DNA from: Salinispirillum sp. LH 10-3-1 | Lineage (GTDB): Bacteria > Pseudomonadota > Gammaproteobacteria > Pseudomonadales > Natronospirillaceae | Direction: 5' to 3' | Assembly (NCBI RefSeq): GCF_030643825.1 | Contig: NZ_CP101717.1 | Coordinates: 930,001-994,000 of the forward strand | DNA length: 64,000 bases | Shown: piece by piece, positions 3,094 through 46,612 of the stretch | How the letters are laid out: each line of letters begins with the position of its first letter | How positions within the stretch are numbered: position 1 is the stretch's first letter | Notes under the pieces: model-generated | The model's database searches: none | Told to the model about the DNA's origin: nothing | The model's input: only the letters and a program-made list of their open reading frames with translations | Translations under genes and position numbers: made by a program

Positions 3094-4449
3094 ATGACAC
3101 AACTGATTGGTACAGACAAGCAGCGAGTCGTTATTGGGTTGGGTAAAACCGGCTACAGTATGGCGACTTGGCTGGCTGCGCAGGGCGTACCGTTTCGAGT
3201 GATGGATACTCGAGCGGATGCACCTTACGCCGCGCAATTTGCGGCAGAACAGCCGCAGGTTGAGCTGTGTCTGGGTCAGTGGGCAACAGACTGGCTGAAC
3301 AGTGCCGACGAGGTTTACGTGAGCCCAGGTGTTGCTTTAGCAGAGCCGGCGTTGGTCTCGGCCATCGCGAAGGGTGCCCAGGTGGTCAGTGACGTCGCGC
3401 TTTACGCCCGCAATACCCAAGCACCCATCATCGCGGTGACAGGGTCAAATGGTAAAAGTACGGTGGTCACCTTATTGGGTGCCGTAGCCGAGCGTCTGGG
3501 GCTGAACGCGGCAGTGGCAGGCAACATCGGTAAGCCAGTCTTGGATCTTATGGACGAGTCGCATGAATTGGCCATTCTTGAGTTGTCGAGCTTTCAGCTG
3601 GAAATGGTCGAGCATTTAAACGCGCGTGTGGCCATGGTGTTAAACATCAGTCCTGATCATATGGATCGTTACGAGGATCTGGCAGCTTACCGGCTCGCTA
3701 AACATCGTATCTTCAATGGCTGCGATAGCTTGGTCGTGAATGCCGATGACGTGTTGACCCAACCCTTGATGTCGAGTGCCCGGCCTTACATGGCGTATTC
3801 GTTGAAACGCAAGGATATTGGCATGTTGAGCGCTGACGTTGACGCTGCGGGTATTCATGTGTTCGACGGCTTGCAGGAAGTGATTCACTGGCCGACGTTG
3901 CGTTTAAAAGGGCGACACAATCTACAGAATATTTTGGCGGTGCTGGCGGTGGCAAAGCTAATGTCATGGCCAATGGCCTCGGTTGCCGAAGCCATTGCTG
4001 CCTTTACTGGATTACCGCACCGCTGCGAGTGGGTCGCCGAGCAGCATGGCGTAACCTTCGTGAATGACTCAAAGGGCACCAATGTCGGCGCAACCGTGGC
4101 CGCCCTGGAGGGCTTAGCGCCTGAATGCACAGGGCGGCTGCACCTGCTGTTAGGCGGCGATAGCAAGTCCGCTGATTTTTCGCCCTTAGCCGCTGTATGT
4201 CAGAAGCTTGCGGTTGCTGTTTATACCTATGGGCGTGACGGAGCCTCGATTGCCGATGCGTGTGAAAAAGCCGGTGTCGCTGCAATGCGGGCCGAGACGA
4301 TGCAAGACGCTTTAGCACAAGCACGTGGTCATGCGGTAGCCGGTGACTGGGTGTTGTTGTCACCAGCGTGTGCAAGTTTTGACCAGTTCGCAAATTTTGA
4401 AGCGCGTGGTGCTGCTTTTGTACAAACCGTGCTGGGAGGTGCTGCATGA
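3094..4449 (+). CDS. murD: UDP-MurNAc-L-Ala:D-Glu ligase MurD
   Basis: MurD adds D-glutamate to UDP-MurNAc-L-Ala in the cytoplasm. The 451-residue product has the Mur-ligase layout: an N-terminal Rossmann-like domain with GLGKTG at about 15, a P-loop GSNGKST at about 117-123, NISPDHMDRY in the central domain, and a C-terminal domain with NDSKGTN and LLSPACASFDQF. Only a weak purine-rich ribosome site precedes it. Its stop overlaps the ftsW start (ATGA). Confidence 0.97.
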   Translation: MTQLIGTDKQRVVIGLGKTGYSMATWLAAQGVPFRVMDTRADAPYAAQFAAEQPQVELCLGQWATDWLNSADEVYVSPGVALAEPALVSAIAKGAQVVSDVALYARNTQAPIIAVTGSNGKSTVVTLLGAVAERLGLNAAVAGNIGKPVLDLMDESHELAILELSSFQLEMVEHLNARVAMVLNISPDHMDRYEDLAAYRLAKHRIFNGCDSLVVNADDVLTQPLMSSARPYMAYSLKRKDIGMLSADVDAAGIHVFDGLQEVIHWPTLRLKGRHNLQNILAVLAVAKLMSWPMASVAEAIAAFTGLPHRCEWVAEQHGVTFVNDSKGTNVGATVAALEGLAPECTGRLHLLLGGDSKSADFSPLAAVCQKLAVAVYTYGRDGASIADACEKAGVAAMRAETMQDALAQARGHAVAGDWVLLSPACASFDQFANFEARGAAFVQTVLGGAA

Positions 4450-44587: not shown

Positions 44588-44730
44588 AAATGTTTTGTTC
44601 CCAATACCAAAGGCCAGTCGGGCGATTGTAGCAAAAGCAGTAGCTACTTCCTTACAAAAATTAGACATTGACCGGTCTGTTGTAGCGTCAGCCTTACACC
44701 TCAATGCCAAACGATTTCGGCTGTTTAGGC

Positions 44731-44937
44731 TTAATAGTGCGGCGGTGGGCTGTCGGTGATTTCGGGGGCTATCTGTTGGGTGAGGCCGGACACCTGATCG
44801 CTGAACTTTTCTAGCAGGCGTTTAAGTTGGCGAATCTCCGCGTCCTGACGCCCTATAACGGCGCTCAACTGTTCGATGGTGTCCTCCGAAAAGGCCAGGC
44901 GTACTTCGAGATCGGCAAATCGTTGTTCAATATCCAC
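44731..44937 (-). CDS. slyX: SlyX family protein
   Basis: The 68-residue protein is a coiled coil (about 3-55: heptads such as LEVRLAFSEDTIEQL and IRQLKRLLEKF) with a proline-rich tail ending PPPHY, the SlyX family pattern. No biochemical function is settled for the family. It lies upstream of plsB on the same strand. Confidence 0.9.
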   Translation of the reverse strand: MDIEQRFADLEVRLAFSEDTIEQLSAVIGRQDAEIRQLKRLLEKFSDQVSGLTQQIAPEITDSPPPHY

Positions 44938-45170
44938 AGTGTTTTTTCAATCCGGGTTGTTTAGTAGTCAAGGTTTTTGGCATTATGTTGACACTTGTGC
45001 GGTTGTGTCTTGTTTCGCCGCGCCAAGAGTACATGTGCAGAAAGGATAGCATACCCATCGGGTGGAGATGCGTCGAAGTGGGTCTAATGCTGGTTAGTTA
45101 CCCTAGGCCTATTAGGTATGCACATTTTAGTTAACTTACGTTAAGTGATTATTGAGAGAAGAGCTAGGTT

Positions 45171-45590
45171 ATGAATGCAGTGAGTATTATTGTTGGTTTA
45201 GTAATTAGTTTTCTGGCGGCTATTGCCGCAACATTGGTTGTTGTTTTTTGGCAAGGCAATCCTGTGTCTTTGGCGTTCAGCCAAGATGGTTTTTGGGCAT
45301 CCGTCGCCAGTGTCTGGGCGTTGATGGCTCTCGTATTGATGATTATGGAGTTCCTGCCACTTGAAGCACGTGAAGATCTGCGCGAAGAGGGCGTGGTGAA
45401 GTGGTTCAATGGAGCAAAAGGGTTTGGTTTTATCACGCGCGATAACGATGAAGACGTGTTTGTACACTTTCGTTCGATTCGTGGGCGCGGACATCGCACC
45501 TTGCATGAAGGTCAGCGCGTAAAATTTGGGGTGGTTGAAAGCGCCAAAGGTTTACAAGCAGAAGACGTAAGCGTGGTGCGCCACCAGTAG
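45171..45590 (+). CDS. Membrane-anchored cold-shock-domain protein
   Basis: The 139-residue protein joins two predicted membrane helices (about 4-28 and 42-62) to a C-terminal cold-shock domain (about 73-138). The nucleic-acid-binding motifs are complete: KGFGFI (RNP1, 83-88) and VFVHF (RNP2, 96-100), after GVVKWFN. The domain should face the cytoplasm and bind RNA or single-stranded DNA at the membrane; the binding is inferred from the family, the anchoring from sequence. AGAGCTAGG precedes the ATG. The 233-base upstream gap contains a perfect TTGACA at 44988 without a clear -10. Its TAG stop lies in a REP-like element. Confidence 0.85.
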
Positions 45591-45624
45591 GAGGCAAGCC
45601 CTCTGGCCGAATACTAACGGCCAG
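45587..45624. repeat. REP-like element at the cold-shock gene / holA junction
   Basis: From the GTAG at 45587 the sequence matches the element after moaE at 23 of 24 bases from 45588. CTGGCCG at 45603-45609 pairs perfectly with CGGCCAG at 45618-45624. The TAG stop of the cold-shock gene is part of the repeat head, and the last codons of the convergent holA occupy the right arm, so the element is partly coding. Confidence 0.75.
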
Positions 45625-46612
45625 CCCAACGCAATACAACCTGCCCCATCAACAGCCACGGGTCCAGGTTGTCACTGCCTTTAACCGCCGCATCGGTGCG
45701 CTGCAGCAACTGCAATAACGTGCTCCAGCGTGCCGGTTTGATGCGGCTCACCGCTTGCTTCACCGGCCCTTGGCGTGGCCCCATAATCCGCAAGGCCATA
45801 CAGGCTTGGTCGATGGACTCACCTCGCTGAACCTTTTCCTGAATCTGCATTGCATGGCGTGCTTCTCGCGTAAGCGCCCATTGCACCATCAAGGGTTCAA
45901 CACCCTCGCTGCGCAAGCTGTCCAGAATGCGCTGCGCGCGGGCTAAATTGCCTGTATTCGCAGCATCGGTTAGATCAAATACCGTAAAACGGGCATTGTC
46001 GACCACCGACTCCAGCACCAGTTCGGCACTGACTTCGCCATCGCATAAAAGTGCCAGCTTCTCCAACTCTTGCTTGGCAGCCAGCAAGTTACCGTCAACG
46101 CGTTCGGCCAACAACTGGGCGGCATCCGGTGTGAGCGTCAGTTTCAACTGGCGCGCCCGTTGTGAAAGCCATTGCGGCAATTGCTGGCGTTGGATTGGCC
46201 ATACATTGATGACGCCAGCCTGCACGGTGAAGGTTTTGAACCACTTGGTTTTCAGCGTAGCGCGATCCAGTGCTGCGCCATTCACCAGCAATATGTTGTC
46301 CGGGTTGGGCGACGCGGCGTATTCCTGCAGCACATCCTGGCCTGCTTTATCCGGCTTGCGCTCCAGGTTCAATTCCAGCAGCAGTCGGTCACTGAACAGC
46401 GACATCGCTTGATTCGCCTCGATCAACGAAGACCAACTGAACTGTGCATCCGCTTGCAGTACCCGGCGTTCTCCCACCCCATTTTTGCGGGCGTGCTGCC
46501 GTAAGGTGTCTAGCGTCTCCAACACCAATAGCGGTTCCTGCCCCATGACCACGTAGATGGGCAGAAACTGCTTATTCAGATGCTGGGTCAGCTGTTCAGC
46601 CTTGATGTCCAT
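45614..46612 (-). CDS. holA: DNA polymerase III delta subunit HolA
   Basis: HolA is the clamp-loader subunit that opens the beta clamp. The 332-residue protein fits the family, with the N-terminal QLNKQFLPIYVVMGQEPLL, the domain II stretch LLAERVDGNLLAAKQELEKL, and C-terminal helices. It starts six bases after the leuS stop; the usual lptE gene between leuS and holA is missing. Its 3' end lies in a REP-like repeat. Confidence 0.94.
   Translation of the reverse strand: MDIKAEQLTQHLNKQFLPIYVVMGQEPLLVLETLDTLRQHARKNGVGERRVLQADAQFSWSSLIEANQAMSLFSDRLLLELNLERKPDKAGQDVLQEYAASPNPDNILLVNGAALDRATLKTKWFKTFTVQAGVINVWPIQRQQLPQWLSQRARQLKLTLTPDAAQLLAERVDGNLLAAKQELEKLALLCDGEVSAELVLESVVDNARFTVFDLTDAANTGNLARAQRILDSLRSEGVEPLMVQWALTREARHAMQIQEKVQRGESIDQACMALRIMGPRQGPVKQAVSRIKPARWSTLLQLLQRTDAAVKGSDNLDPWLLMGQVVLRWAGR

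Follow-up and report, generated by a model that had tools for sequence, protein, structure and literature searches.

The gene described here lies in a window of 64,000 nucleotides, by which is meant the whole stretch of DNA that was analysed, and occupies positions 45171..45590 of the + strand, where an open reading frame (ORF) with an ATG start and no internal stop encodes a cold-shock-domain protein of 139 aa with a predicted membrane anchor. Its divergent neighbour is slyX (44731..44937, – strand; Pfam SlyX, 66.6 bits), and the two genes are separated by a gap of 233 bases (44938..45170) in which the promoters of both are expected. Within this gap, a promoter and terminator scan returned no promoter-like site on the + strand, with counts close to those of shuffled sequences, and an alignment of the region 5' of the gene with two relatives showed little conservation. 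Over positions 44700-45700, Rfam gave nothing above threshold, one match to a snoRNA family scoring 18.5 bits against a threshold of 40. Beyond slyX lies an ORF that we take for plsB, and 3' of the cold-shock gene are ORFs that are presumably holA and leuS, the three names being assigned from the sequence. The genome of the window has three matches to the cold-shock domain (CSD), namely a 76-residue CspA-type frame, the membrane-linked CSD described here (membrane CSD, for short) and a frame of 109 residues whose tail is longer.

An earlier note, made from the letters of this DNA, had described two membrane helices followed by a complete CSD with intact RNP1 and RNP2 motifs, a description with which profile searches, hydropathy and structure prediction agree. 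The Pfam profile PF00313 matches residues 73-135 (45387..45575, + strand) with an E-value of 5.5e-24 and 84.3 bits (cut-off 27), and the match covers positions 2-65 of the 66 in the profile. RNP1 (KGFGFI, residues 83-88, 45417..45434, + strand) and RNP2 (VFVHF, residues 96-100, 45456..45470, + strand) are both intact in the translation. Among 46 sequences, G84, G86 and F87 of RNP1 and F97, V98 and H99 of RNP2 are invariant, K83 and F85 reach at least 90 %, and all invariant columns listed in two alignments fall inside the CSD or at its edge (a relative with ambiguous letters, L058, was excluded from the structure alignment). In the AlphaFold2 model of the window protein, built from 13 sequences (mean pLDDT 82.2, pTM 0.50), five strands lie within residues 72-135 and form the five-stranded OB barrel typical of the CSD family. 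The closest solved structures found by Foldseek are Salmonella CspE, CspC (bound to an endolysin) and E. coli CspA, the top four matches having TM-scores on the target of 0.89-0.91 and rmsd values of 1.0-1.3. The window protein scores below the cut-off of all 11 NCBIfam models listed, the best score being 91.5 against 120, for CspE. A defence protein was considered as well and rejected, since the PADLOC match to CSD_V (56.2 bits) spans the CSD only.

N-terminal of the CSD, the window protein has two hydrophobic stretches with Kyte-Doolittle means of 2.86 and 2.15 (19-residue windows), and AlphaFold2 places helices at residues 3-27 (45177..45251, + strand) and 38-61 (45282..45353, + strand), so that two membrane helices are predicted by both approaches and membrane insertion is likewise predicted. 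The family charge distribution puts the CSD on the cytoplasmic side, with an N-in/C-in topology. In the 66 relatives with two helices, the mean number of K+R is 1.5 in the N-tail, 0.4 in the inter-helix loop and 2.3 over the 20 residues that follow helix 2, and the count on the presumed inner side exceeds that of the loop in 60 members, falls below it in one and equals it in five. Because no K or R precedes its own helix 1, the predicted topology of the window protein rests on these relatives. An odd number of segments, at the threshold used, is found in 10 of 80 members (five with one, five with three), which do not fit an N-in/C-in arrangement unless a helix was missed or overcounted. The N-terminal membrane part appears to be under purifying selection: in 10 of 13 hand-picked pairs its dN/dS is 0.08-0.33, values that are rough since dS exceeds 1 in six of the 10 (of the remaining pairs, two gave no dS estimate and one has an ambiguous letter), and the CSD has values of 0 to 0.08 in the nine computable pairs of the 13. 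The relatives share with the window protein a median identity of 27 % N-terminal of the CSD vs 66 % within it. The sequence of the membrane part thus drifts, yet the part itself is present in 80 distinct relatives, as is expected of an anchor. A chance ORF or a wrong start at 45171-45590 was discarded on the strength of the hydrophobic segments of the relatives and of this purifying selection.

The relatives come from three sources: 96 genomes of the order to which the window belongs, 30 of which had loci in the search; 80 loci on genome contigs; and 40 regions retrieved because their listed open frame had at least about 130 aa without stops. From these, 159 CSD ORFs were extracted, 84 of which have a hydrophobic segment ahead of the CSD, and 80 of these are distinct and at least 110 aa long, after three repeats were dropped together with L114 (92 aa by the start chosen, in an open frame that has four segments). 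Two segments are found in 66 of the 80, one in five, three in five and four in four; the 80 were taken as best matches to the window protein, near relatives included, and hence are not independent. The second region of one genome (L147, G040) has no hydrophobic segment ahead of its CSD. By genome, the membrane CSD is present in at least 70 of 96, a lower bound made up of 69 with a hydrophobic segment before the CSD in a recount and one found later (G005), and it is present in 21 of 22 genomes of the window's own family and in 32 of the 47 families sampled. In most other members of the window's family, identity is 53-82 % over the aligned part, and end-to-end relatives in two genomes of this family (G006, G012) are 70 % and 62 % identical. 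Carriers include Natronospirillum operosum (70 % identity), Larsenimonas, Marinospirillum, Chromatocurvus and a Litoricola MAG. In a sample of the class (229 genomes), 30 loci were looked at, three of them from the order (L155, L156, L158); among the other 27, five have two segments ahead of the CSD (L154, L157, L161, L169, L183), and in two (L163, L170) the open frame is short and contains a single segment that probably precedes the start. This count covers the 30 loci; the list has other long frames as well, among them one in G240 with 203 aa. In a sample of the phylum (150 genomes), the ten best-scoring matches all come from the window's order. Judged by sequence, the membrane CSD is therefore a conserved and widespread family, wider than the window alone showed, and the relatives across the order rule out a singleton architecture. 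In one locus from Pseudomonas oryzagri (L041), with slyX downstream, the helix-like sequence and the CSD are in different frames; the record contains ambiguous letters and the split is probably a flaw of the record.

The membrane-linked CSD is also, by its sequence, a type of its own, more basic and with nearly fixed arginines. Its mean net charge is +1.4 (sd 1.7, n=80; +1 in the window protein) vs –1.4 (sd 0.8, n=21) in soluble CSDs, the comparison set comprising 22 loci, that is, 20 regions from genomes with a membrane CSD together with L001 and L003 of the window genome, of which L188 gave no CSD by the pattern used. Among the 80 membrane-linked CSDs, arginine is found at position 90 in 65, at 101 in 75, at 104 in 73 and at 109 in 75, and at the start of the domain R71 is present in 73 and E72 in 71. 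In a maximum-likelihood tree built from 74 membrane and 56 soluble CSDs (130 in all), the two labels change twice vs 42 times in shuffles, and one branch (93/97) unites all 74 membrane rows, the window CSD among them, with four soluble rows; the membrane rows by themselves form a single clade in 0 % of 200 bootstrap trees, the tree having 66 columns only and a bootstrap that had not settled. The four soluble CSDs comprise a tandem copy from a single genome (L025), a Moraxellaceae protein (L065) and two Pseudomonas CSDs adjoining a plsB relative, as in the window (L052, L055). Since they fall within the membrane-type clade, the anchor is not needed everywhere. Three of them (L052, L055, L065) are helix-less CSD ORFs from about position 3992 that may either have lost the anchor or descend from CSDs predating it. 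L025 and L158 each contain a tandem pair, in which a soluble, membrane-type CSD immediately precedes the anchored CSD in the same orientation.

With CspA, CspC and CspE the window protein has in common the fold and the CSD with RNP1 and RNP2. It differs from them in its predicted N-terminal membrane hairpin and in being twice as long, and membrane CSDs as a group are set apart by their basic character, their arginine signature and, save for the four soluble CSDs, their place in the tree. The classical CspA type is a stand-alone soluble protein of about 70 aa, whereas the window protein has 139 aa and two predicted membrane helices. DUF1294 is a membrane part, and CSD-DUF1294 proteins resemble the window protein in that a CSD is joined to a membrane part. 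In cold-shock proteins with DUF1294, this domain forms the C-terminal end (PMC7404187), whereas in the window protein the CSD is C-terminal and no DUF1294 match is listed by Pfam; the order of the parts is thus the reverse, as the earlier note had stated. The ribosome hibernation factor HPFcold, like the window protein, carries a C-terminal CSD after another N-terminal domain (PMC13392368), but that domain is PF02482, and no such match is listed for the window protein. A fusion of either the DUF1294 or the HPFcold type was therefore ruled out, neither domain being among the Pfam matches listed. A search of open-licence PMC papers found no study characterising a membrane-bound cold-shock protein of this kind. 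Of the interpretation put forward in the earlier note, the architecture and the order of the parts have stood, and the family charge bias adds a CSD on the cytoplasmic side; RNA binding at the membrane, perhaps close to translating ribosomes or to the edge of the nucleoid, is a proposal. The existence of a widespread and usually slyX-linked subfamily, and of a probable member in Pseudomonas aeruginosa, escaped that note (see below).

From the computed architecture, fold, motifs, conservation, family charge bias, clade and slyX linkage, we infer, with moderate confidence, that the window protein is a CspA-type RNA chaperone anchored in the inner membrane, with its CSD on the cytoplasmic side. 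The two N-terminal helices would form a membrane hairpin with N-in/C-in topology that concentrates the CSD locally at the bilayer, near which the domain would be held by a short linker (about residues 62-70). Messages for membrane proteins are translated at the bilayer (PMC5571963), and the CSD would bind and melt single-stranded stretches of RNA lying or being translated at the membrane, with the messages of inner-membrane proteins as candidate targets. Its basic character might provide extra affinity for RNA or a contact with acidic lipids. The usual picture of bacterial cold-shock proteins is one of small, soluble molecules; a conserved class bound to the membrane in Pseudomonas-type bacteria and their relatives would place RNA remodelling where membrane proteins are made. 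In many such bacteria, RNA degradation takes place at the membrane, with RNase E being membrane-bound.

The window protein belongs to the slyX-linked membrane-CSD subfamily, as we define it, by its predicted helices before a C-terminal CSD, by slyX on the opposite strand next door and by the position of its CSD in the membrane-type clade. Across the family, slyX (detected with the SlyX profile) adjoins the membrane CSD in 59 of 80 loci. Eight of the 59 are from elsewhere, and the others represent 51 of the 96 genomes, spread over 19 of the 47 families. The two genes are on opposite strands in all 59, divergent in 41, as in the window, and convergent in 18. Since opposite strands are kept in both arrangements, the adjacency has outlived rearrangement without co-transcription, and the membrane CSD tends, to judge from these loci, to stay beside slyX. 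The flanks are uneven, from about 0.4 to 5 kb, so that some of the 21 loci without slyX may be short stretches; the soluble-CSD control gave a SlyX match in 0 of 22 loci. By genome, slyX is present in 88 of 96, with a score over the Pfam cut-off in 86. The 70 genomes with a membrane CSD include 68 that have slyX, and among the 26 in which no membrane CSD was found there are 20 (one of them, G052, under the Pfam cut-off). The presence of slyX thus does not sharply track the membrane CSD across the 96 genomes, and its occurrence in genomes where no membrane CSD was found implies that slyX does not need it. Of the 27 genomes initially counted as free of a membrane CSD, 20 were inspected around slyX: one has a membrane CSD after all (G005), and 17 showed no CSD by the pattern used. 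The other two, which belong to one family (L204, L205), have a soluble CSD at a distance of 1.7 kb from slyX and lack a membrane CSD in the stretch inspected.

SlyX is not known to have a function, and by this linkage slyX gains a candidate partner. The protein and SlyX might together constitute one RNA- or ribosome-related system at the membrane, a view that is compatible with a tethered chaperone and that we hold only tentatively, leaning against it. It draws on the adjacency in most loci, always on opposite strands and kept through a change of arrangement, on the lack of a SlyX match at the 22 soluble-CSD control loci and on the presence of slyX in nearly all genomes with a membrane CSD; it has to contend with the 21 loci without slyX, with the 20 genomes that have slyX and no membrane CSD found, and with the five members outside the order, where no slyX occurs within stretches of at most 1.5 kb per side. 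The adjacency may also be explicable by inherited gene order. The broader proposal, an order-wide and unrecognised class of membrane-resident RNA chaperones working with SlyX, we regard as speculative and rather unlikely as well; if true, it would mean a dedicated site of RNA remodelling at the inner membrane and the first functional context for SlyX.

The helices could alternatively serve as a sensor that responds to the state of the bilayer, upon cold or an osmotic or lipid change, by altering or releasing the CSD, making the protein a membrane thermosensor in place of a fixed tether. Purifying selection on the N-terminal part (dN/dS as given above) would suit this reading, as would the long acidic or basic and possibly cleavable linkers of several members; the helices, however, vary in sequence and number, the listed invariant columns lie in the CSD or at its edge, and the window protein has hardly any linker, so that we consider a sensor distinctly unlikely. 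The CSD might otherwise bind single-stranded DNA and tie replicating or transcribed DNA to the membrane, given that it is basic and that CspA-family proteins bind ssDNA as efficiently as RNA (PMC9239060), but its commonest neighbour is slyX, and we think such a role improbable. That the N-terminal part is not made at all, an internal start giving an ordinary soluble Csp, is suggested by in-frame ATG codons within helix 2 and can be given hardly any credence in view of the purifying selection on the N-terminal codons, the hydrophobic segments in 80 relatives and the lack, by eye, of a clear ribosome site at those ATGs.

A tethered RNA chaperone, the reading preferred here, can be set beside a known gene of P. 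aeruginosa through one member of the family (L131), in which the gene order is oprD - HIT - slyX - membrane CSD - ferritin-like - class II D/K/N tRNA synthetase (Pfam; SlyX profile for slyX). The synthetase gene we take for aspS; PA0960 is presumably SlyX and PA0958 oprD. In strain PAO1, PA0960 (hypothetical) is followed by PA0961 (cold-shock), PA0962 (DNA-binding stress protein) and PA0963 (aspS) (PMC2771283). The order at L131 matches that of PA0960-PA0963, and PA0961 is therefore, by gene order, probably a member of the membrane-CSD family. The membrane CSD of L131 has 210 aa and four hydrophobic segments, as against two in the window protein, and its slyX is convergent, whereas that of the window is divergent. 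The excerpts of the literature consulted name PA0961 as a cold-shock or CspA-family protein and leave a membrane part unmentioned. Mutants in each of the cspA-family genes grow normally in LB (PMC9239060), and a transposon mutant in PA0961 has wild-type virulence in C. elegans (PMC3406104), both of which weigh against the preferred reading. The PA0960-PA0963 segment is among the regions whose higher copy number accompanied more aminoglycoside resistance, which the excerpt available does not trace to PA0961 (PMC2771283). In Grad-seq, PA0961 sediments toward the middle of the gradient, as does PA1159, whereas CspA stays in the first fractions (PMC8545117). A membrane-bound class could explain why PA0961 sediments unlike CspA; against reading this as a sign of a tethered RNA chaperone stand the like behaviour of PA1159 and the chance that the position in the gradient results from membrane fragments or from protein partners.
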